Below, in pieces: positions 23,486 to 38,269 of a stretch of DNA of 38,269 nt. The stretch comes from Enterobacteriaceae bacterium UBA2655 (GTDB lineage: Bacteria; Pseudomonadota; Gammaproteobacteria; Enterobacterales; Enterobacteriaceae), in the NCBI GenBank assembly GCA_002359495.1, contig DENB01000082.1, forward strand, positions 1 through 38,269. The letters run 5' to 3'. The notes beneath the pieces were generated by a model that was not told the DNA's origin, searched no databases, and worked only from the letters and a program-made list of their open reading frames with translations. Both the position numbers and the translations under genes were made by a program. Every line of letters starts with the position of its first letter. The stretch's first letter is position 1.

Positions 23486-24208
23486 TTAACGCAGCTTATT
23501 ACGCTGCAAAAATCCCTCCCCGCCCAACTGCCGCATCTGACGCATAATCCATTGCTGACGCTGACGAACATAGCCGGAAGGGGCGCCGGCGCGAAAGCGC
23601 AGCGGATTCGGCAATACGGCGGCCAGCAGCGCGGCATCAGCGATGGTCAGCTTGCTGGCCGGCTTGTGGAAGTAACGCTGCGCGGCGGCTTCGACGCCGA
23701 ATACGCCCTCGCCGAATTCAGCCACGTTGAGATAGACCGTTAAAATGCGTCGTTTTGTCCAGACCGTTTCAATGCCTACCGTCAGACCCGCCTCCAGTCC
23801 TTTACGCAGCCAGCTGCGGCCGTCCCAGAGAAACACATTTTTCGCCGTCTGCTGCGACAGCGTTGAGGCGCCGCGCATCCGTTCGCCCTCGTTTTTGTCC
23901 AGTACCGATTCGATAGCGGCGACGTCAAATCCCCAGTGTTGCGGAAATTTTTGGTCTTCCGAAGCGATCACCGCCAGCGCCATCCAGGGCGAGATTTTAT
24001 CCATCCCGACCCAATCGGAATGCGCCACATAATCAAACTGTCCGCTGAACCAGGCGCTCAGCAGCCGTTCCGCCATTACTGCGGAAAAGGGAACAGGCAA
24101 AAACGCGAACAGAAGAATACCTGCAATCCAGACTCCGGCTAACATAAGAAACAGGCGCGCTAAAATAGCTTTAATTCGTTGCAAACCCTTCCCTTTATGC
24201 TTACTCAT
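23486..24208 (-). CDS. mtgA: Monofunctional peptidoglycan glycosyltransferase MtgA
   Basis: This 240-residue GT51 enzyme polymerises lipid II into glycan strands. It has one N-terminal membrane anchor (about 17-37). The catalytic Glu84 lies in [14 protein letters not shown]; the following blocks [26 protein letters not shown] and [15 protein letters not shown] are family signatures. The ATG at 24208 has AAGAGAAGA upstream and gives the family length (E. coli 242); an ATG eight codons earlier lacks a ribosome-binding site. It converges on npr. In E. coli elbB follows upstream, but here it is absent. Confidence 0.95.
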
Positions 24209-24232
24209 GCAATCTTCTCTTATCTGTTTCAT

Positions 24233-24960
24233 GAATTAATCAATTACTGACGTCATGAACGAATGTTTTCATCAAATTTACTGAAAATGACGGCGATTAT
24301 TCCATCATGCATTAAACTAAAAAACAGACACTGCTGGTACAGCCAGCGAAATGTACTTGTGACATCAAGCACTTCCAACCGTTAGGAATCGGTTCCATCG
24401 GCGTTTTCATCTTAGAATATCCCTTTCTCAACTCTTAATATTTTGTAATAATGAGCAGGGTGAATCATTCACCATGCTTAACTATTAAGCCAGGAAGAAT
24501 TTGCTTCTCTGCAAGAATGAGCCGCATTGGTCTTAAAACAGGTGAATTTTTTGCGCCAATTTTTCATGTTGCTTTGGTTCATCATGTAAAAAATTAAAAA
24601 GCAAGACGATCCGTATTGATTGTCAAAACCTAATGTTTGCATTTTTTTGCCTTGCTTACCAAAACGTTTTGGACAGCCCGGGTATAACTCCTTTTTGTTA
24701 CTGCGTTTTCAAAAGGTTATAAAGAAAAATTCGGAAAAATTTTAGCGGGCTGTTTTTTCCGGCTGCGTCGTATTGTAAAAAATTATGCGACCATAAGAAA
24801 TCATGGAAAAACAGGAATAATTGGTTAAAATTAGAGCAATGCAGCGAAGAAATTGATTCCTTGCTTGACTGTGTCATCAAATTAATGTTTTCTGTATTTA
24901 AACGCTGTTCAACTTCACACATCTTAATGAATCTTGTCGCAATGCGTGGCATATTTGCTA
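24233..24960. other. AT-rich gene-free gap in the place of elbB
   Basis: In E. coli elbB lies between mtgA and arcZ/arcB. Here about 730 bases hold no convincing gene: the one longer open frame (24698-24952, minus) has no good ribosome-binding site and no recognisable family. The stretch is clearly more AT-rich than its flanks. I saw no ElbB-like residues. It contains a perfect 14-base palindrome (24659-24672). Confidence 0.6.
24659..24672. promoter_or_regulatory. Perfect palindrome, possible LacI-family operator
   Basis: CCAAAACGTTTTGG is a perfect 14-base palindrome with the central CG step and AAACG/CGTTT halves common to LacI/PurR-type operators. It is followed by TATAAC at about 24683, but no gene of matching orientation begins nearby, so its target is unknown. 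Confidence 0.3.
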
Positions 24961-24969
24961 AGGTGTTAT

Positions 24970-25093
24970 GGAAGCGTTAACCAATACCACGCTGTTGCTC
25001 AAGACATTCTCCTAAGAATAGCAGCAGTGACCCTTTTCCCTGGTGTTGGCGCAGTATTCGCGCACCCCGGTTTCGACTGGGGTTATTTTTTTT
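24970..25093 (+). ncRNA. arcZ: Hfq-dependent small RNA ArcZ
   Basis: The 3' part is unmistakable. TTTCCCTGGTGTTGGCGCAG (25035-25054) runs on into the conserved GTATTCGCGCACCCCGG. It ends in a terminator hairpin (25064-25070 with 25077-25083) and a T run to 25093. ArcZ base-pairs with rpoS (activation) and with flhDC, tpx and sdaC mRNAs in E. coli, through this conserved region, and is processed to a short 3' form. The 5' end is not conserved and is set only by the E. coli length (121); the true start may lie between about 24964 and 24975. The gene converges on arcB, as in E. coli, and its terminator overlaps the arcB stop. Confidence 0.9.
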
Positions 25094-27437
25094 CAGCTTC
25101 CCTTAAATCCTCAGCTTCGCTTACCCAGTCGCGTAATACGGCGACGTCGTGTTGCCACTCCTGCTTGAGTTCGTCTATCCATTCCTGAACATTGTCCCAC
25201 CAGGCGGGCAGTTCCGGGCTTTGAATCTGTTTCGCCAGCTGTTGCAGATGCTGCAAGCCTACCGACCCGGCTGCGCCCTTGATTTTGTGTCCCTCTTCCG
25301 CAATGCCTTTCTGGTCGCGCGCCATCATGTTGGAGTCCAACACTTCAAGATAGCCTGGCATCATCTGCTCAAACATTGCGAGACTCTGATGAATCAGATC
25401 CGGTCCGACGAGATCGAGATACTGTTCCAGCATCGGCACATCCAGCAGCGCCAGCGTTTTATCGCTCAGCGGCGGCGTATCGCTCTCATCCGGCTGCGCC
25501 TGATAATCCCAATATTTTTTGATGATCGCCGTCAGCGCCGGGACGGCCAGCGGCTTGCTCAGCACATCGTCCATGCCCGCCTCCAGGTACTCTTTTTTGT
25601 CTTTCAGCACGTTAGCGGTCAGCGCAACCAGCGGCGGCAGCATGTGGTTTTGATAACGACGATGGATTTCGCGCGAGACGTCAAGCCCGGTCATATCCGG
25701 CAGCTGGATATCAAGCAGCACCAGATCGAACTCCTGCGGATCGAACATCGCCAGCGCGTCCGTGCCTGTCATCGCCACTTCGACGCTGCACCCGAGCTTC
25801 TCCAGCACCGAGCGCGCGACAATCACGTTCAGCTCGATATCTTCCACCAGCAGGACATGCAGCGCCGGCAGCGGCAGCGAATCCTCCGGGTTCTCGTCAT
25901 CCGCCTCTTCCGCCACGCGCGGCGCGTGGATCGATACGGTAAAGCAGGAACCCTGCCCCGGCGCGCTGCGTACGCTGATATCGCCGCCCATCGCCTGCGC
26001 CAGCCGACGCGAAACCGCCAGACCGATGCCGGTGCCGGTCGCCGGCTTGCCGCCGTGCTGATCCTTCACCTGATAATACATGGCGAAGATTTTATCCTGC
26101 TCATCCTGCGGGATGCCCATGCCGGAATCTTCGACCTCGAAACGCAGCGTTTCATCCTGCCCATACTGCACGCGCACCACGATTTCGCCCTGCTGAGTGA
26201 ACTTCACGGCGTTGCCGATCAGATTCCACAGGATCTGGCGCAGCCGCGTGCCGTCGGCGCAAATTTTATGCGGCAGCGGCAGCGTCGGCGCCATAATGAA
26301 CTTCAGTCCCTTGGGCTGCGCCAGCAGGCCGGACAGGTTTTCGAGATCGGCAAGGAAGCCGGTAAAATCCAGCGGCTGGTTATCGAGCTGCACTTTGCGC
26401 CGCTCGATCTTATCCATCTCAATCACGTCGTTAAAAATGTTCCCCAGGGTAATGGCGGAGACGTGAATAGTCTTCAGGAATTTCAGCTGCTCCTGGTTCA
26501 AATCGGTATCCAGCAGGATGCGGCTAAGCCCGACGATGCCGTTAAGCGGCGTACGCAGCTCGTGGCTGATAGTGGAAATAAAGGTGGTCTTTTCCCTGCT
26601 GGCGTTCTCCAGCGCGTCCTGGTAGCGCTTACGCTCAGTAATATCGCGGCCGAAGCCCATCAGGCCGCTGCGTTTGCCCACGCGGTCGTAATAAGGCACC
26701 TTGCGAATTTCAAAGCAGGCTTTGCGCCCGTCGGGATATTGCAGCCACTGCTCGTAGGTCAGCGCCACGTTGTGCCGGAACACCTTCTCATCGGTTTCCA
26801 GCACCTTGGTTGCCGCTTCGTCGTCATAGATGTCGCGCGGAGTCAGCCCGATCAGCTGCTTCTCGCTTTTGCCGGTCAGCAATTCCATCGCGCGGTTGCA
26901 GCCAGAAAACTGCTTGTCGATATTGCGATAGAAAACCAGATCCGGCGACGCGTCGAGGAAAGAGCGCAGAAAAGAGGATTGCTGTTCCAGTTCGATCTGC
27001 GCCTGCTCGCGCCGCGCCATCTCCTCGCGCAGTTTGTCCATTACCTGCTCGCGCGCCTGCTCCGCCTTAATACGATCGGCGATCTCCTGGTTAAGCTGGC
27101 TGATGGTCTCCTGCATCTGTTGATTAAGCTCCAGATCGCGGGTGCGCATCTCCTCCAGTTTATCCACCAGGCGCGCCAGGCGCTGACGCGATTCCTCCAG
27201 CTGATCGACCACGACCGAGAGGAAATAGACGGCCCAGGGAGTAATCAGCAGGCCAAAGAAGATCGATCGCACCATGTCGATGCTCTCTACATGACCGCGC
27301 AGCACCATAGTAACGGCCATCTGTACGATCATGGCTAATACCACCAGCGCGGAGGCCAGCAGCAGCGAAAAGCGCACCAGCCCCAGCTTGACCATCAGAT
27401 CAACGTAATACTGCGCTAACAGACGAATTTGCTTCAT
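25083..27437 (-). CDS. arcB: Anaerobic redox sensor histidine kinase ArcB
   Basis: This 784-residue hybrid kinase controls ArcA in response to quinone redox state. It has two N-terminal transmembrane helices (about 23-46 and 57-77), a leucine-rich linker, and a PAS domain with the redox cysteines Cys180 and Cys241. The HisKA site is His292 (SHELRTPLNG), followed by an ATPase domain (NLIGNAVKFT and GTGIGLAVSRR), a receiver domain with Asp576 (DLVLLDIQLPDMTG), and a C-terminal Hpt domain with His717 (EEGHKIKGAAGS). All five functional residues have the same numbers as in E. coli; the tail is slightly longer (778 there). The E. coli neighbours elbB and yhcC are both missing. Confidence 0.97.
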   Translation of the reverse strand: MKQIRLLAQYYVDLMVKLGLVRFSLLLASALVVLAMIVQMAVTMVLRGHVESIDMVRSIFFGLLITPWAVYFLSVVVDQLEESRQRLARLVDKLEEMRTRDLELNQQMQETISQLNQEIADRIKAEQAREQVMDKLREEMARREQAQIELEQQSSFLRSFLDASPDLVFYRNIDKQFSGCNRAMELLTGKSEKQLIGLTPRDIYDDEAATKVLETDEKVFRHNVALTYEQWLQYPDGRKACFEIRKVPYYDRVGKRSGLMGFGRDITERKRYQDALENASREKTTFISTISHELRTPLNGIVGLSRILLDTDLNQEQLKFLKTIHVSAITLGNIFNDVIEMDKIERRKVQLDNQPLDFTGFLADLENLSGLLAQPKGLKFIMAPTLPLPHKICADGTRLRQILWNLIGNAVKFTQQGEIVVRVQYGQDETLRFEVEDSGMGIPQDEQDKIFAMYYQVKDQHGGKPATGTGIGLAVSRRLAQAMGGDISVRSAPGQGSCFTVSIHAPRVAEEADDENPEDSLPLPALHVLLVEDIELNVIVARSVLEKLGCSVEVAMTGTDALAMFDPQEFDLVLLDIQLPDMTGLDVSREIHRRYQNHMLPPLVALTANVLKDKKEYLEAGMDDVLSKPLAVPALTAIIKKYWDYQAQPDESDTPPLSDKTLALLDVPMLEQYLDLVGPDLIHQSLAMFEQMMPGYLEVLDSNMMARDQKGIAEEGHKIKGAAGSVGLQHLQQLAKQIQSPELPAWWDNVQEWIDELKQEWQHDVAVLRDWVSEAEDLREAEKK

Positions 27438-34187: not shown

Positions 34188-34210
34188 TTTTTCCGCCCGC
34201 CTGACGCTCA

Positions 34211-34243
34211 ACGCCTCTTCGTTGTCGAAGAGGCGTTTTTTTA
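34211..34243 (+). terminator. gltBD terminator
   Basis: A perfect 11-base-pair stem (ACGCCTCTTCG at 34211-34221 with 34226-34236) and a TTGT loop are followed by seven T residues. The T run extends into the stop codon of the converging ABC exporter gene at 34241-34243, so the accessory locus begins exactly at this terminator. Confidence 0.9.
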
Positions 34244-36370
34244 TCTGCCGCCAGCCTGATCAGCCAACTCATCCGCCAGATTAATCACCCGATCGGCTGA
34301 AGCGATGGTAGAAGGACGATGCGCAATGATAATACGCGTCACTTTTTGCGTGGCGATAGCCTGATTAATATGGGCCTCGTTCTCCAGATCGAGGTGGCTG
34401 GTCGCCTCATCCATAAACAGGATCATCGGCTGACGGTAAAGCGCGCGGGCGATGAGCAGGCGCTGTTTTTGCCCGCCGGAGAGGCTGCCGCCCAGCTCCG
34501 AAATCAACGTCTCATACCCCATCGGCATCGCCATAATATCATTGTGAATGTTCGCCATTTCGGCGCACTGCCGCATCAGTTCGTCATCGTGCGGCGCGGT
34601 GAAGGCGCAAATATTATCCGCGATCGATCCAGAAAACAGCTTGTCGTCCTGCAGTACGCAGGCGATGCAGCGACGGTAGTTGTTCAACCCGATGGCGTGA
34701 ATATCCATGCCGTTAAACATCACCTTACCGGCGTCAGGCTTCACCTGCCCGGTCATGACTTTCATCAGCGTGGTTTTGCCTAATCCTGACGGCCCGACGA
34801 TCGCCACGCTTTCACCCGCGACGAAGCGCAGACTCAGATGGGAAAATATCGGCCTGGTGATGGCATCGTATTGATAGCCAATATCCTGAAGCTCAAGCGA
34901 AGCCGCCTCGTTAGAACGGTAGATATCAATAATTTTGCCGCTGTCTTCAGGCGGGGTTAACACAATATCAGCGACGCGCTCATTATGCAGACCTAACATA
35001 CGCAGCTGTAAAAGCATATTCACCAGGCTGGCGGCGCGCTCGCCGAACTGTCCCCGATAAGCGTTAAACGCGACGAACATACCGATGGTTAAATTGCCGT
35101 CAATCACCATGGTCGCGCCAAGCCATAAAATAATGACCTGATCGAAAGCGGTAATAATGTTATTGACGCCGCCGAACAGCATATCCAGTTTCGAGAGCTT
35201 AATACCTGCGTTAGTGCTGTCTACGCTAAGATTCAGCCAGTACTGCGCGCGCGTTTGCGTCAAACCCAGCGAGCGAATGGTATTTATGCCATAAAGCGTC
35301 TCCATAAAATGGGAATCCGCTTTCGCATCCCGGACAAGTTTGTCTTCCGTTGCGTTACGGTAGCGCCGCCACGTCGTTAAGCGCAGCGCGACATAAATTA
35401 ACGTCATCGCAATGACTACCCAGAGCAACCAGCCACCATAAAGATACATCATGACGATTAAGCCGACGGACATGATAGTATCAATAATGCTGTTTACGAT
35501 ATTGGTGGTAAAAATCTTATGCAGCGTTTCAAGCGAATTAAAGCGAGACTGAATATCCCCCAACTTTCGCTTTTCAAAATAATGGGAAGGCAAATCGAGA
35601 AGATGGCTAAAAAGACCGCCCTTCCACTGTACGTCAATCAATGCGCCGATAGTTAACGTTATCCAGGACCGGAAAAAAGAGACAAAGGTTCGAAAAAGAA
35701 TAAAAGAAAAAAGCCCCAGACACACCAGCATCAGTAGCCCGGCATCTTCAGCAGGCAGCACATGGTCCATAACCAGCTGCGTACCCATCGGCAAAAGCAG
35801 ATTAATACTCTCTATAATTAACGACAGGGAAAATATTTTTGTCAGCGCGCCGCGCAGTCCGATAATATTTTTCAGCAGGCTGGAAAAACGAAACTTTACC
35901 CGTTCTTCAACCGGCGTAAAGTCGTTGCCTGGCCAGAGCTCCAGCGCGATTCCGGTAAAATGCTGGCGACAGCGCGAAAAGGATATTTTGCGTTTCCCGC
36001 GTGCTGGATCCATGATGGTAATACTGCGCTGATTTACCGCTACCAGCACAACGAAATGATTGAGATCCCAATGCAGAATACAAGGGCATCGCAGTAATTT
36101 TAGCTCATCAATTTCCAGCGAAAGCGCCCGGGTCTGCATCCCCATATTTTTACTCATGGTGACGAGATCTTTTAAGGTCAGTCCGCGTGAAGAGACGCTA
36201 AATCTTTCTCTTATTGAAAAAAGATCGTGATTTATGCCGTAAAAGCCGGAGATCATGGCTAAACAGGCAAGGCCGCATTCTGACGCCTCAGTTTGCAAAA
36301 TTTCAGGAATTTTCGATCGAAATGAAAAACTCAAACGGCGCGTTATCCATTGATAGAACTGTTCGTTCAT
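34241..36370 (-). CDS. Peptidase-containing ABC exporter, CvaB-like (microcin secretion)
   Basis: This 709-residue bacteriocin-type exporter cleaves a double-glycine leader and pumps the peptide out. The N-terminal C39 peptidase (about 20-150) has all catalytic elements: Gln26, Cys32 in QTEASECGLACLAM, His105 in LNHFVVLV and Asp121 in MDPARG. A six-helix transmembrane domain spans about 165-460. The nucleotide-binding domain has Walker A GPSGLGKTT (526-534), LSGGQ (630-634), Walker B with Glu655 (LFMDEATSHLD) and the switch His684 (IIAHRPSTI). Size and layout match CvaB of the colicin V system. The start touches the stop of the upstream adaptor gene (TGAATG), indicating coupling. The cognate substrate is most likely the 73-residue precursor at 37844-38065. 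Confidence 0.93.
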   Translation of the reverse strand: MNEQFYQWITRRLSFSFRSKIPEILQTEASECGLACLAMISGFYGINHDLFSIRERFSVSSRGLTLKDLVTMSKNMGMQTRALSLEIDELKLLRCPCILHWDLNHFVVLVAVNQRSITIMDPARGKRKISFSRCRQHFTGIALELWPGNDFTPVEERVKFRFSSLLKNIIGLRGALTKIFSLSLIIESINLLLPMGTQLVMDHVLPAEDAGLLMLVCLGLFSFILFRTFVSFFRSWITLTIGALIDVQWKGGLFSHLLDLPSHYFEKRKLGDIQSRFNSLETLHKIFTTNIVNSIIDTIMSVGLIVMMYLYGGWLLWVVIAMTLIYVALRLTTWRRYRNATEDKLVRDAKADSHFMETLYGINTIRSLGLTQTRAQYWLNLSVDSTNAGIKLSKLDMLFGGVNNIITAFDQVIILWLGATMVIDGNLTIGMFVAFNAYRGQFGERAASLVNMLLQLRMLGLHNERVADIVLTPPEDSGKIIDIYRSNEAASLELQDIGYQYDAITRPIFSHLSLRFVAGESVAIVGPSGLGKTTLMKVMTGQVKPDAGKVMFNGMDIHAIGLNNYRRCIACVLQDDKLFSGSIADNICAFTAPHDDELMRQCAEMANIHNDIMAMPMGYETLISELGGSLSGGQKQRLLIARALYRQPMILFMDEATSHLDLENEAHINQAIATQKVTRIIIAHRPSTIASADRVINLADELADQAGGR

Positions 36371-37660
36371 TCATCTGCCCTGCAATGCTTTTTTAATTTT
36401 ATAATAAGGCTGGAATACCCACTGATACAGAGGACGGTTTTCCAAAAAAAGCGTCGCCTCCGCCAGCAACCCCTCTGTGAGCGCAATACTTTTCGACTCA
36501 TAGGTGATAACGCTACTGGCAGGTTCAACGAAGACTTTATAATAGTTTTCTCCGTTCGAAGCTTTTAAGAGATGTTCGGCGCTTCGATAATTTCCCATTT
36601 CCTGCAACGAAGCCGGCACGGCGGAAACGGAGACGATTTTCCCGGAGAACTGACCAAAGCGTTCATAAGGGTAAGCGCTGTAGCGTAAGTTAACCTTATC
36701 GTTGACGTTAATATAAGGCAGACCGGATCCCGGCACCCAAAGCACCACTAAGGCTTTTTTCTCCGCTTCCGGAATAATTTGCGCCATCGCATCATGGGCG
36801 GCAAGCATCTGTCCCACTGAGACGCTCATTGTCTCGATAAAGCCGTCAACGGGAGCGGTAATAGCTATGAAGCCATTCGTTTCTACTTCATTCAGGCTGC
36901 GCGAAACGTTGCTTTTGCTGTTTTCATATTCAGAAATTTTATTTTCGAACTCTATAGCTTTGGATTTAAGATCGTTCTCCAGACTTTTAATCAGCAACGT
37001 TTCCTGTTCTTTTTGGTTAAGAAGCGAGTCGTAAATGTTTTGTTGTTGATAGTACAGGCTGGCCTGGTAATTAAGCTGATCCTGCGTTATCCAACCCTTT
37101 TTTCGGTAGGCGTTGTAGCTTTCAAAGCTTTTTTTCGCTGCAGTTAACCCTTTCGTCGCGTTGCTCAATGAATCTTTGGTCTGTTTAAGTTTTATCTTTT
37201 TTTGTTCAAGCTGAGAACGTATGTGTTCAAGCTCCTGATCCTTATTCCGCTCGGTTTTCATGATAATCTGATCGAGGTTTTTACGCTGATCTTCTAATAA
37301 CATCCGGGATTGCGTGCTCACAACGCCATGGTTTGTTACTTTATTGACGTCGATCAGATAGATAAGCTGGCCTTTTTTCACTTTTTGACCAGGTTCGACA
37401 TAACGCTCAGCGACGTAACCTGGCTGTGTGCTGAGGATGTTAATAAATCGCGGATTAAAGGTGGCTTCGCCTGTTACGTTCGTCCGACGATCCATATGAG
37501 CGTAACGCAAAGCTAAAATAAGAATAAGTAGAAAAAATAACGAAATAATCAGAGTTATCCATGAGGGAACTCTGGCGATTAACAATGCCTGCCCTGCCCA
37601 CCTTCCATGATGAAAAACAACGGCTTCAGCGCGAAAAAGCTTCCTGCTTTTATCGGGCAT
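36371..37660 (-). CDS. HlyD/CvaA-family periplasmic adaptor (microcin secretion)
   Basis: This 429-residue membrane-fusion protein links the ABC exporter to an outer-membrane channel, presumably the chromosomal TolC, since none is encoded here. One N-terminal transmembrane helix (about 33-53, SWITLIISLFFLLILILALR) is followed by a lipoyl half-motif (PGYVAERYVEPGQKVKKGQL). A long coiled coil occupies about 115-270, rich in Gln, Lys and Glu. The second lipoyl half (ITAPVDGFIETMSVSVGQML) and a beta-barrel domain complete it. It resembles CvaA (413). Codon use is AT-rich compared with gltBD. AGGGAAAG lies upstream of the ATG; TATAAT at 37763-37768 may be its own -10. Confidence 0.9.
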   Translation of the reverse strand: MPDKSRKLFRAEAVVFHHGRWAGQALLIARVPSWITLIISLFFLLILILALRYAHMDRRTNVTGEATFNPRFINILSTQPGYVAERYVEPGQKVKKGQLIYLIDVNKVTNHGVVSTQSRMLLEDQRKNLDQIIMKTERNKDQELEHIRSQLEQKKIKLKQTKDSLSNATKGLTAAKKSFESYNAYRKKGWITQDQLNYQASLYYQQQNIYDSLLNQKEQETLLIKSLENDLKSKAIEFENKISEYENSKSNVSRSLNEVETNGFIAITAPVDGFIETMSVSVGQMLAAHDAMAQIIPEAEKKALVVLWVPGSGLPYINVNDKVNLRYSAYPYERFGQFSGKIVSVSAVPASLQEMGNYRSAEHLLKASNGENYYKVFVEPASSVITYESKSIALTEGLLAEATLFLENRPLYQWVFQPYYKIKKALQGR

Positions 37661-37783
37661 AATATCTTTCCCTGTCTATTTTGAGGCTATTTTCATAAGC
37701 ACATGCCCAGGCTAAAAAAAATAACATGCCTGATAACTTTCCATCGTGATGGGAATCTGATGATTATAAATAAAATTTAATTA

Positions 37784-37815
37784 AAAACGACATCAGTAGA
37801 CAATGATGTCGTTTT
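37784..37815 (-). terminator. Terminator or attenuator after the microcin-like gene
   Basis: A perfect 12-base-pair stem (AAAACGACATCA with TGATGTCGTTTT) and an 8-base loop start about 30 bases beyond the peptide stop. On the minus strand it is followed by TTAATTAAATTTT. It lies between the peptide gene and its transporter genes and would give more peptide than exporter mRNA. Confidence 0.75.
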
Positions 37816-37843
37816 ACATGTTTAATTAAACAGATATCAAGGC

Positions 37844-38065
37844 TTATTTCTTAAACCATTTGCTGATAGACTCAGCCAGCGAACCAATAATACCACCAAT
37901 GCCAGCGCCCAGAGTTAACAGTGAGTCAGAGAATGAAGGCGCATTGTCTTCACGCAGTGCCCAGCTTGCCAAGCCATTAATACCTGATTGAATGGCACTC
38001 AGAGATTCACCAAAAGAAATGCCACCAGCAACTTCCATTGTTTCTACTTCATGTAATTCACGCAT
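37844..38065 (-). CDS. Double-glycine-leader microcin-like peptide precursor
   Basis: This 73-residue precursor has a 15-residue leader MRELHEVETMEVAGG, very like class II microcin leaders (colicin V MRTLTLNELDSVSGG). The mature part is 58 residues, starting ISFGESLSAIQSG. The core has no cysteine, so no disulfides and no lanthionines. It carries an acidic middle (REDNAPSFSD) and ends with a glycine-zipper-like hydrophobic stretch (GAGIGGIIGSLAESI) and a basic tail KWFKK, consistent with membrane insertion. The ATG at 38065 is preferred because AAGGAGA lies 6 bases before it; an ATG at 38068 and an upstream GTG at 38089 are less likely. It has its own promoter and terminator and is followed by the adaptor and exporter genes. 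I do not recognise it as a named microcin. Confidence 0.85.
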   Translation of the reverse strand: MRELHEVETMEVAGGISFGESLSAIQSGINGLASWALREDNAPSFSDSLLTLGAGIGGIIGSLAESISKWFKK

Positions 38066-38105
38066 CATTTTCTCCTTGTTATGATACACGCTAAAAATTA
38101 AAAAG

Positions 38106-38134
38106 AAAATATCACTCTAATATTACAGCGTCAA
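38106..38134 (-). promoter_or_regulatory. Promoter of the microcin-like gene
   Basis: On the minus strand TTGACG (38134-38129) is followed after exactly 17 bases by TATTTT (38111-38106). This is a good sigma-70 promoter placed about 40 bases before the peptide start. Confidence 0.65.
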
Positions 38135-38205
38135 TATACAAAAACTAATTTTTAAGAGAAAATACGTATTATATTATTGGAAATATCTTAATTAATATCA
38201 ATAGT

Positions 38206-38216
38206 ATGATTATCAT
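38206..38216. promoter_or_regulatory. Fur-like half-site palindrome upstream of the microcin-like promoter
   Basis: ATGATTATCAT is an 11-base palindrome (ATGAT-N-ATCAT) that equals the core of the Fur box, but the outer hexamers are poor (12 of 19 positions overall). It lies about 75 bases upstream of the -35. In an AT-rich background this may be chance. Confidence 0.3.
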
Positions 38217-38269
38217 ATAAATGATTATTTTAAATAATAAATTTTACTCAGCTAAATAGCTGCGCGGAA
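38217..38269. other. Right edge of the window, no gene recognised
   Basis: The stretch is AT-rich with a small inverted repeat CAGCTA-AA-TAGCTG (38249-38262). All three minus-strand frames entering from the right edge stop within a few codons, so a gene could end here, but nothing can be identified. An immunity gene could lie just beyond. Confidence 0.3.

Follow-up and report, generated by a model that had tools for sequence, protein, structure and literature searches.

The window analyzed here, an entire contig of 38,269 nucleotides (nt) from the genome of Enterobacteriaceae bacterium UBA2655 (contig C53 of that genome), carries at its end, downstream of gltD, three minus-strand genes. We read them, with a probability of about 0.6, as a bacteriocin module with a single peptide, of the class II microcin or Cdz-like type, that was acquired and lies between gltD and probably sspB. 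After gltD and a hairpin, the order is an ATP-binding cassette (ABC) exporter with a C39 peptidase domain, a periplasmic adaptor, and a double-glycine (GG) precursor peptide (Table 1). A first-pass annotation made from the sequence had named this trio beside gltBD, and the open reading frames (ORFs) were indeed found at that place and on that strand, with matching domains. Judged by its sequence, the cassette is a real and intact secretion set for a new small peptide family.

Exporter, adaptor, and TolC

The exporter matches the Pfam domains Peptidase_C39 (E = 3e-35), ABC_membrane (E = 3e-46), and ABC_tran (E = 1e-29), and its residues 16 to 701 align with PCAT1 (4ry2) over nearly the full length (E = 5e-96). 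It keeps Q26, C32, H105, and D121 as well as the GPSGLGKTT (Walker) and LSGGQ motifs. C32, H105, and D121 occupy the positions of the CvaB catalytic triad (PMC9746304), and together with the domain match they bear out the intact C39 peptidase previously proposed for a CvaB-type exporter. The adaptor gene ends immediately before the start codon of the exporter gene; its product matches HlyD_3 above the cutoff (E = 8e-13), and all its NCBIfam matches fall below theirs. TolC-type genes occur elsewhere in the genome (best score, 437 bits; two of six matches exceed the TIGR01844 cutoff). A class II microcin system has five components, namely, a precursor, a C39 exporter, an adaptor, TolC, and an immunity protein (PMC9746304), of which the GG-leader precursor, the C39 exporter with its triad, the adaptor, and, elsewhere in the genome, TolC are present here.

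The precursor contains a duplicated unit and a conserved glycine zipper

In a search over 5.8 billion proteins, which detects only sequences that have 5-residue words in common, the precursor had four homologues (97, 70, 71, and 64% identical), and a later profile search added none. The closest, P0001 (97%), stands for the cluster that holds the window's own protein, so that three homologues (P0002 to P0004, the first from Pantoea osteomyelitidis) are clearly independent. The leader is identical at 13 to 15 of 15 residues in all four, which argues against a reading frame that arose by chance, and we assume that this MREL...GG leader of 15 residues resembles known class II microcin leaders. Use of the adjacent upstream ATG at 38068 would lengthen the precursor to 74 amino acids (aa).

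Within the core, residues 17 to 32 match residues 44 to 59 at a shift of 27, a tandem duplication whose score was equaled by none of 2,000 column shuffles of the five-sequence alignment and by 0 or 1 of 1,000 shuffles of any single sequence. Internal repeats are not special to this core, as 30 of 108 other GG-peptide cores reach ≤6 of 300 shuffles. Glycines 53, 57, and 61, which form a GxxxGxxxG zipper, are invariant in five close sequences, and G53 and G57 are invariant in 14 aligned sequences; because 845 of 10,000 core shuffles contain such a motif by composition alone, its conservation weighs more than its presence. Identity of the core to P0002, P0003, and P0004 amounts to 36, 39, and 32 of 58 residues, respectively, with 12 to 13 of 27 residues identical in the region of unit 1 (residues 16 to 42) and 14 to 18 of 22 in that of unit 2 (residues 43 to 64). 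AlphaFold2, given the five-sequence alignment, predicts a helical hairpin (mean predicted local distance difference test score of 75.6 for the best model and 70.6 to 53.5 for the others), and the amphipathic moments of the helices beat nearly all shuffles (0 to 8 of 2,000 as high). The core has no cysteine. Against Pfam and NCBIfam, the precursor gave nothing at an E value of ≤1, in keeping with the first-pass remark that the core was unrecognized; it had no relatives in the PDB at an E value of ≤10, and a fold comparison returned 52 matches at an E value of ≤10 and none at ≤0.001.

Cdz-like peptides are described by four sequence features: a length of 60 to 151 residues, a G[G/A/S] leader, one or two zippers flanked, not interrupted, by a proline or charged residue, and a short charged or polar tail (PMC5380434). 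All four are seen here, with 73 aa, GG, G53-G57-G61 between the charged residues D47 and E65, and the C-terminal tail ESISKWFKK, of which 6 to 9 of 9 residues are identical in the homologues. Cdz-like systems mostly have one peptide, often have transposases nearby, and have secretion genes that are more conserved than the peptides (PMC5380434). From these features and traits, we take the locus to work in the manner of bacteriocins of the Cdz-like or class II microcin kind; its membership in this group is probable, and we infer killing by the peptide.

In the proposed mechanism, the precursor would be translated with its 15-residue leader and cut after Gly15 by the exporter's C39 domain, and the exporter, the adaptor, and chromosomal TolC would release the 58-residue core outside. 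The core would consist of two tandem amphipathic helices from one duplicated unit, of which the second, better conserved one, with the zipper, would enter the inner membrane of a target cell, probably a competing bacterium, and self-associate there, and the faster-changing first unit would set the receptor or the range.

Peptide and exporter recur together

P0002 and the exporter P0006 (89% identical to that of the window) are both on contigs of 570,836 bases, and P0003 and the exporter P0007 (88%) are both on contigs of 496,121 bases. The equal sizes make it very probable that peptide and exporter travel together, so that the homologous pairing the first-pass annotation had proposed to look for in related genomes very probably recurs. 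Among the matches listed, the next exporters are about 62% identical. Of 61 genomes of the genus, 31 (the source genome included) encode exporters at an E value of ≤1e-100, which are at most 55% identical outside the source genome. From these matches, the source organism seems to be a relative of Pantoea. The precursor profile had matches at an E value of ≤10 in 45 of these 61 genomes, none better than 0.145 outside the source genome; two of the weak matches (in G300 and G306) represent different GG peptides, also located near exporters. Among 295 sampled genomes of the family, the precursor was found in its own genome only, and no near match to the DNA of adaptor and precursor was found in E. 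coli.

The locus appears acquired, and the contig ends in an IS630-type repeat

GC content drops from 60% in gltBD to 49% in the exporter and 44% in both the adaptor and the precursor, which upholds the earlier description of an AT-rich locus next to chromosomal gltBD and suggests, from composition, acquisition from outside. Within the exporter (34241 to 36370), third-position GC climbs from 49% in the C39 part to 55% in the membrane part and 68% in the ATPase part, and the gene may be a mosaic. A plasmid origin was considered and rejected, as the precursor's best plasmid match has an E value of 6 and the best plasmid exporter among the matches listed is 59% identical.

The contig stops 204 nt 5' of the precursor, within a repeat that is shared by the ends of contigs C29, C92, and C28 of the source genome and that, in another genome (L093), flanks an IS630-family transposase gene, exactly at one end and with 2 mismatches in 20 positions at the other (IS, insertion sequence). 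GltD is 91 to 95% identical in eight genomes of the genus besides its own (61 searched), and sspB-sspA follow gltD in seven of these eight, the eighth having other cargo. The source genome has sspA-sspB on contig C29, only 106 bases of which follow the sspB stop codon. The simplest order would be gltD, exporter, adaptor, precursor, IS630-type element, and sspB; as an IS630-type transposase gene was not found in the source assembly, the element and this order are deduced from the terminal repeat and the L093 copy. No target-site duplication was recognized by eye.

The gap between gltD and sspB may be an insertion hotspot. At L070 (G315), among the matches listed, unrelated acetyltransferase-like and glycosyltransferase-like genes (named by eye) follow gltD. 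At an E value of ≤1e-200, GltD was found in 15 of the 61 genomes of the genus (the source genome included), with six of the 15 only 63 to 64% identical, and the distribution of gltBD in the genus looks patchy.

Related loci carry duplicated glycine-zipper peptides

Among 392 genomes of the family, 83, from 42 of 154 genera, encode relatives of the adaptor (E ≤ 1e-60). We surveyed 122 loci, comprising 20 exporter stretches from the genus and 1 more, 99 of 104 adaptor places outside the source genome, and 2 Xenorhabdus loci. At least one clear GG peptide was present in 90 loci (118 peptides in total), and 67 loci have one 250 to 1,400 nt upstream of the adaptor.

Ten survey peptides contain a tandem zipper duplication, with shifts of 20 to 26; eight of them were matched by 0 of 1,000 shuffles, the L124 peptide by 3, and the L129 peptide by 9. 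A profile of these ten aligned with the window core with an hhalign score of 24.6 (probability, 55%), compared with ≤16.0 for 50 shuffles and ≤18.9 for eight other groups. A hidden Markov model (HMM) of the ten plus one more peptide, from which the window family was excluded, scored 20.1 bits on the whole window precursor and 24.9 to 35.4 bits on P0002 to P0004, and 8.6 to 17.5 bits on the four cores without leaders. By these hhalign and HMM scores, a link between the window core and the duplicated glycine-zipper group is likely but remote. The window locus resembles these unnamed loci (L124 to L131, L135, L141, L167, and L221) in the peptide-adaptor-exporter order, the MREL-type leader, the two tandem zipper units, and, for most of them, the lack of an immunity-like ORF; it differs in that nine aligned duplicated zipper peptides are only 22 to 33% identical to the window precursor.

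Further observations concern these surveyed peptides. Two duplicated zipper peptides resemble phenol-soluble modulin beta below the Pfam cutoff (for the L125 peptide, residues 46 to 69, in the second unit, at an E value of 4e-4), which the window precursor does not at an E value of ≤1. In L135, L141, and L167, two adjacent GG peptides, one a duplicated zipper and one longer and glycine rich, lie upstream of the adaptor, an arrangement resembling the two peptides of Cdz.

Candidate immunity genes are present in some related loci and lacking in others

On the minus strand, the spacers of the window locus hold only ORFs of ≤25 aa, and none of at least 20 aa starts between 38090 and 38251; beyond the three genes, no ORF of >43 aa overlaps positions 37640 to 38269. 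With no immunity-like ORF in the contig, and with the contig cut at an IS-type repeat, the claim that the locus is complete is not supported.

The surveyed loci were scanned for immunity candidates, defined as ORFs of 40 to 150 aa that lie no more than 700 nt from the cluster and have one or more predicted membrane stretches. The division into peptide groups was made by eye, once the peptides had been inspected. The 18 glycine-zipper loci were hand-picked (13 stricter and 5 looser, the latter being L132, L133, L134, L137, and L163), leaving out weaker or oddly placed matches (such as L153, L195, L209, L210, L213, and L216); the control set excludes L154, where no peptide could be identified, and the candidate of L202 is on the opposite strand. 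A small membrane ORF was found near all nine MccV-like and all three MccN-like loci, and in 5 of the 18 glycine-zipper loci (L128 and L130 among the 13 stricter ones, and 3 of the 5 looser ones). Of eight "GGDGGG" loci, one had a candidate, and six loci of a further group from the genus had none. One candidate, in L133 and L163, is a 146-aa ORF with three transmembrane segments that we presume to be housekeeping-like, and the looser zipper type matches the window core poorly (hhalign score, 17.9). Because the grouping was made after the fact, the Fisher value of 9e-5 (12/12 versus 5/18) is indicative only. From the survey, it seems that this clade of exporters handles peptides with and without a neighboring immunity gene, so that a "microcin plus immunity" reading can fail, and that the window falls in the group without one, with the reservation of the cut contig.

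Alternative explanations

A conventional diffusible class IIa microcin, with its immunity gene past the contig end or separated or lost through the IS630-type insertion 5' of the precursor, would fit the IS-type terminal repeat and the small membrane ORF near 12 of 12 MccV-/MccN-like loci, whose exporters are related. We nevertheless consider it unlikely, since most loci with the most similar peptides have no such ORF (none in 13 of 18, and none in 11 of the 13 in the stricter group), the core did not resemble colicin V, L, or N in the comparisons made, and the stretch 5' of the precursor is free of suitable ORFs, as described above.

An exported structural, adhesive, or signaling peptide, for example one that forms surface aggregates, would need no immunity gene, consistent with the scarcity of candidates in the glycine-zipper loci and in the two other groups. 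A second group of GG peptides also speaks for such roles: in L148 to L152, L155 to L158, and L114, a 63-aa peptide beginning MKQLTE, encoded on the opposite strand, looks near-identical across genomes (by eye, among the matches listed), unlike a fast-evolving bacteriocin. This explanation is improbable for the window peptide, whose core changes more rapidly within the family than the leader or the exporter does, as expected of peptides used in competition; amphipathic, zipper-bearing cores are, moreover, typical of membrane-active peptides. Aggregation on the surface does not keep Cdz peptides from killing, and a culture-supernatant assay of them can be negative (PMC5380434). Given the Cdz-like features of the window peptide, a supernatant test may miss its activity, and such assays alone could wrongly mark the locus as inactive.

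The bacteriocin module remains our preferred reading. More unexpected is that loci with duplicated glycine zippers repeatedly lack an immunity-like gene. Tentatively, these loci, that of the window among them, might represent a widespread, unnamed class of duplicated-zipper exported peptides without an immunity gene, whose producers are protected in another way or whose function is not killing. Protection could then come, for example, from inactivity until assembly on the surface or from dependence on a receptor that the producer lacks, and whether and how producers of zipper peptides protect themselves becomes a testable question.

Regulatory elements and other features of the window

The hairpin between precursor and adaptor has a z-score of −2.54, with 2 of 200 shuffles folding equally well, and is missing from the output of the consensus terminator scan; it may allow peptide output in excess over the exporter. 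A consensus scan for promoter-like sites gave 13 in the region versus 7.7 expected. Control by a Fur box was rejected: the two matches in the locus, at 35860 and 38186, each have three mismatches to the consensus, and with the sole Fur-like match near the precursor lying in AT-rich DNA, the iron regulation hinted at earlier finds no support. Across the window, five matches with ≤3 mismatches to this consensus were counted versus 0.93 expected, a number reached by 1 of 100 shuffles. No Rfam elements were found in the window.

Positions 24233 to 25082 are AT-rich, with no ORF of >84 aa wholly inside, and are flanked by what we take to be arcB (25083 to 27437, minus strand) and an mtgA-like gene (23486 to 24232, minus strand). 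In E. coli, elbB is expected between arcB and mtgA; it seems to be absent here.

Table 1. Features of the locus downstream of gltD and at the contig end (positions in the window)
Feature	Position	Strand	Basis
Terminator-like hairpin 3' of gltD, border of conserved backbone	34210..34237	+	Consensus scan
Peptidase-containing ABC exporter (C39, transmembrane, and nucleotide-binding domains), 709 aa	34241..36370	-	ORF and domain matches, 4ry2 alignment, motifs
HlyD/CvaA-type periplasmic adaptor, 429 aa	36371..37660	-	ORF and domain match
Terminator-like hairpin between precursor and adaptor (10-bp stem, 8-nt loop, T run)	37783..37813	-	Folding
Double-glycine precursor, 73 aa	37844..38065	-	ORF, homologues, alignment
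Glycine zipper GxxxGxxxG, G53/G57/G61	37883..37909	-	Alignment
Core unit 2, residues 44 to 59, SFSDSLLTLGAGIGGI, tandem copy of unit 1; helix 45 to 71 in model	37889..37936	-	Duplication test, AlphaFold2
Core unit 1, residues 17 to 32, SFGESLSAIQSGINGL; helix 18 to 36 in model	37970..38017	-	Duplication test, AlphaFold2
Leader of 15 residues, MRELHEVETMEVAGG; cleavage predicted to follow GG	38021..38065	-	ORF and homologue comparison
AGGAG Shine-Dalgarno sequence of precursor	38072..38076	-	Sequence reading
Promoter-like TTGACG-17-TATTTT, TG before second hexamer, 9/12	38106..38134	-	Consensus match only
Repeat CTAAATAGCTGCGCGGAA at contig end	38252..38269	+	Four contig ends here; ends of IS630-family element in another genome

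Comparison with known systems

The siderophore microcins (MccH47, E492, and M) have the type of export machinery in common with the window locus. Unlike these class IIb peptides, the window peptide has no serine-rich C terminus, and from the adaptor to the end of the contig there is no gene but the precursor; a siderophore microcin was rejected on these grounds. With the class IIa microcins (MccV, L, N, S, and PDI; PMC9746304), the locus shares the adaptor, the C39 exporter with a triad at the CvaB positions, and TolC, and it differs from them in having no Pfam MccV core match, no cysteines, and no adjacent immunity gene in the contig. Of the first-pass assignment to the class II microcins, the type of secretion thus stands, and membership in the colicin V, L, or N families does not (no match at an E value of ≤1 in Pfam, including PF17508, or NCBIfam, and no cysteine, with MccL and MccN not compared directly); the sequence agrees better with Cdz-like glycine-zipper bacteriocins. 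Class II microcins occur widely among the Enterobacterales, and published screens have included Pantoea and Erwinia candidates (PMC9746304, PMC13101503, PMC11494933, and PMC13174018); the available text of these papers, supplementary tables aside, does not describe the window peptide. Among the papers listed in literature searches, none reports such a Pantoea locus in its title, and a paper that combines microcin and gltD was set aside as a chance co-occurrence.

By published criteria rather than by sequence, the locus is like CdzABCD/I of Caulobacter in combining a type I secretion pair with a small zipper peptide that has a G[G/A/S] leader. Caulobacter Cdz has two peptides and the three-transmembrane immunity protein CdzI, whereas the window has one internally duplicated peptide and no immunity ORF in the contig; immunity proteins of Cdz-like systems are harder to identify (PMC5380434). 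Among the matches listed, no homologue is named a bacteriocin, and the precursor family is an addition to the microcin/Cdz field.

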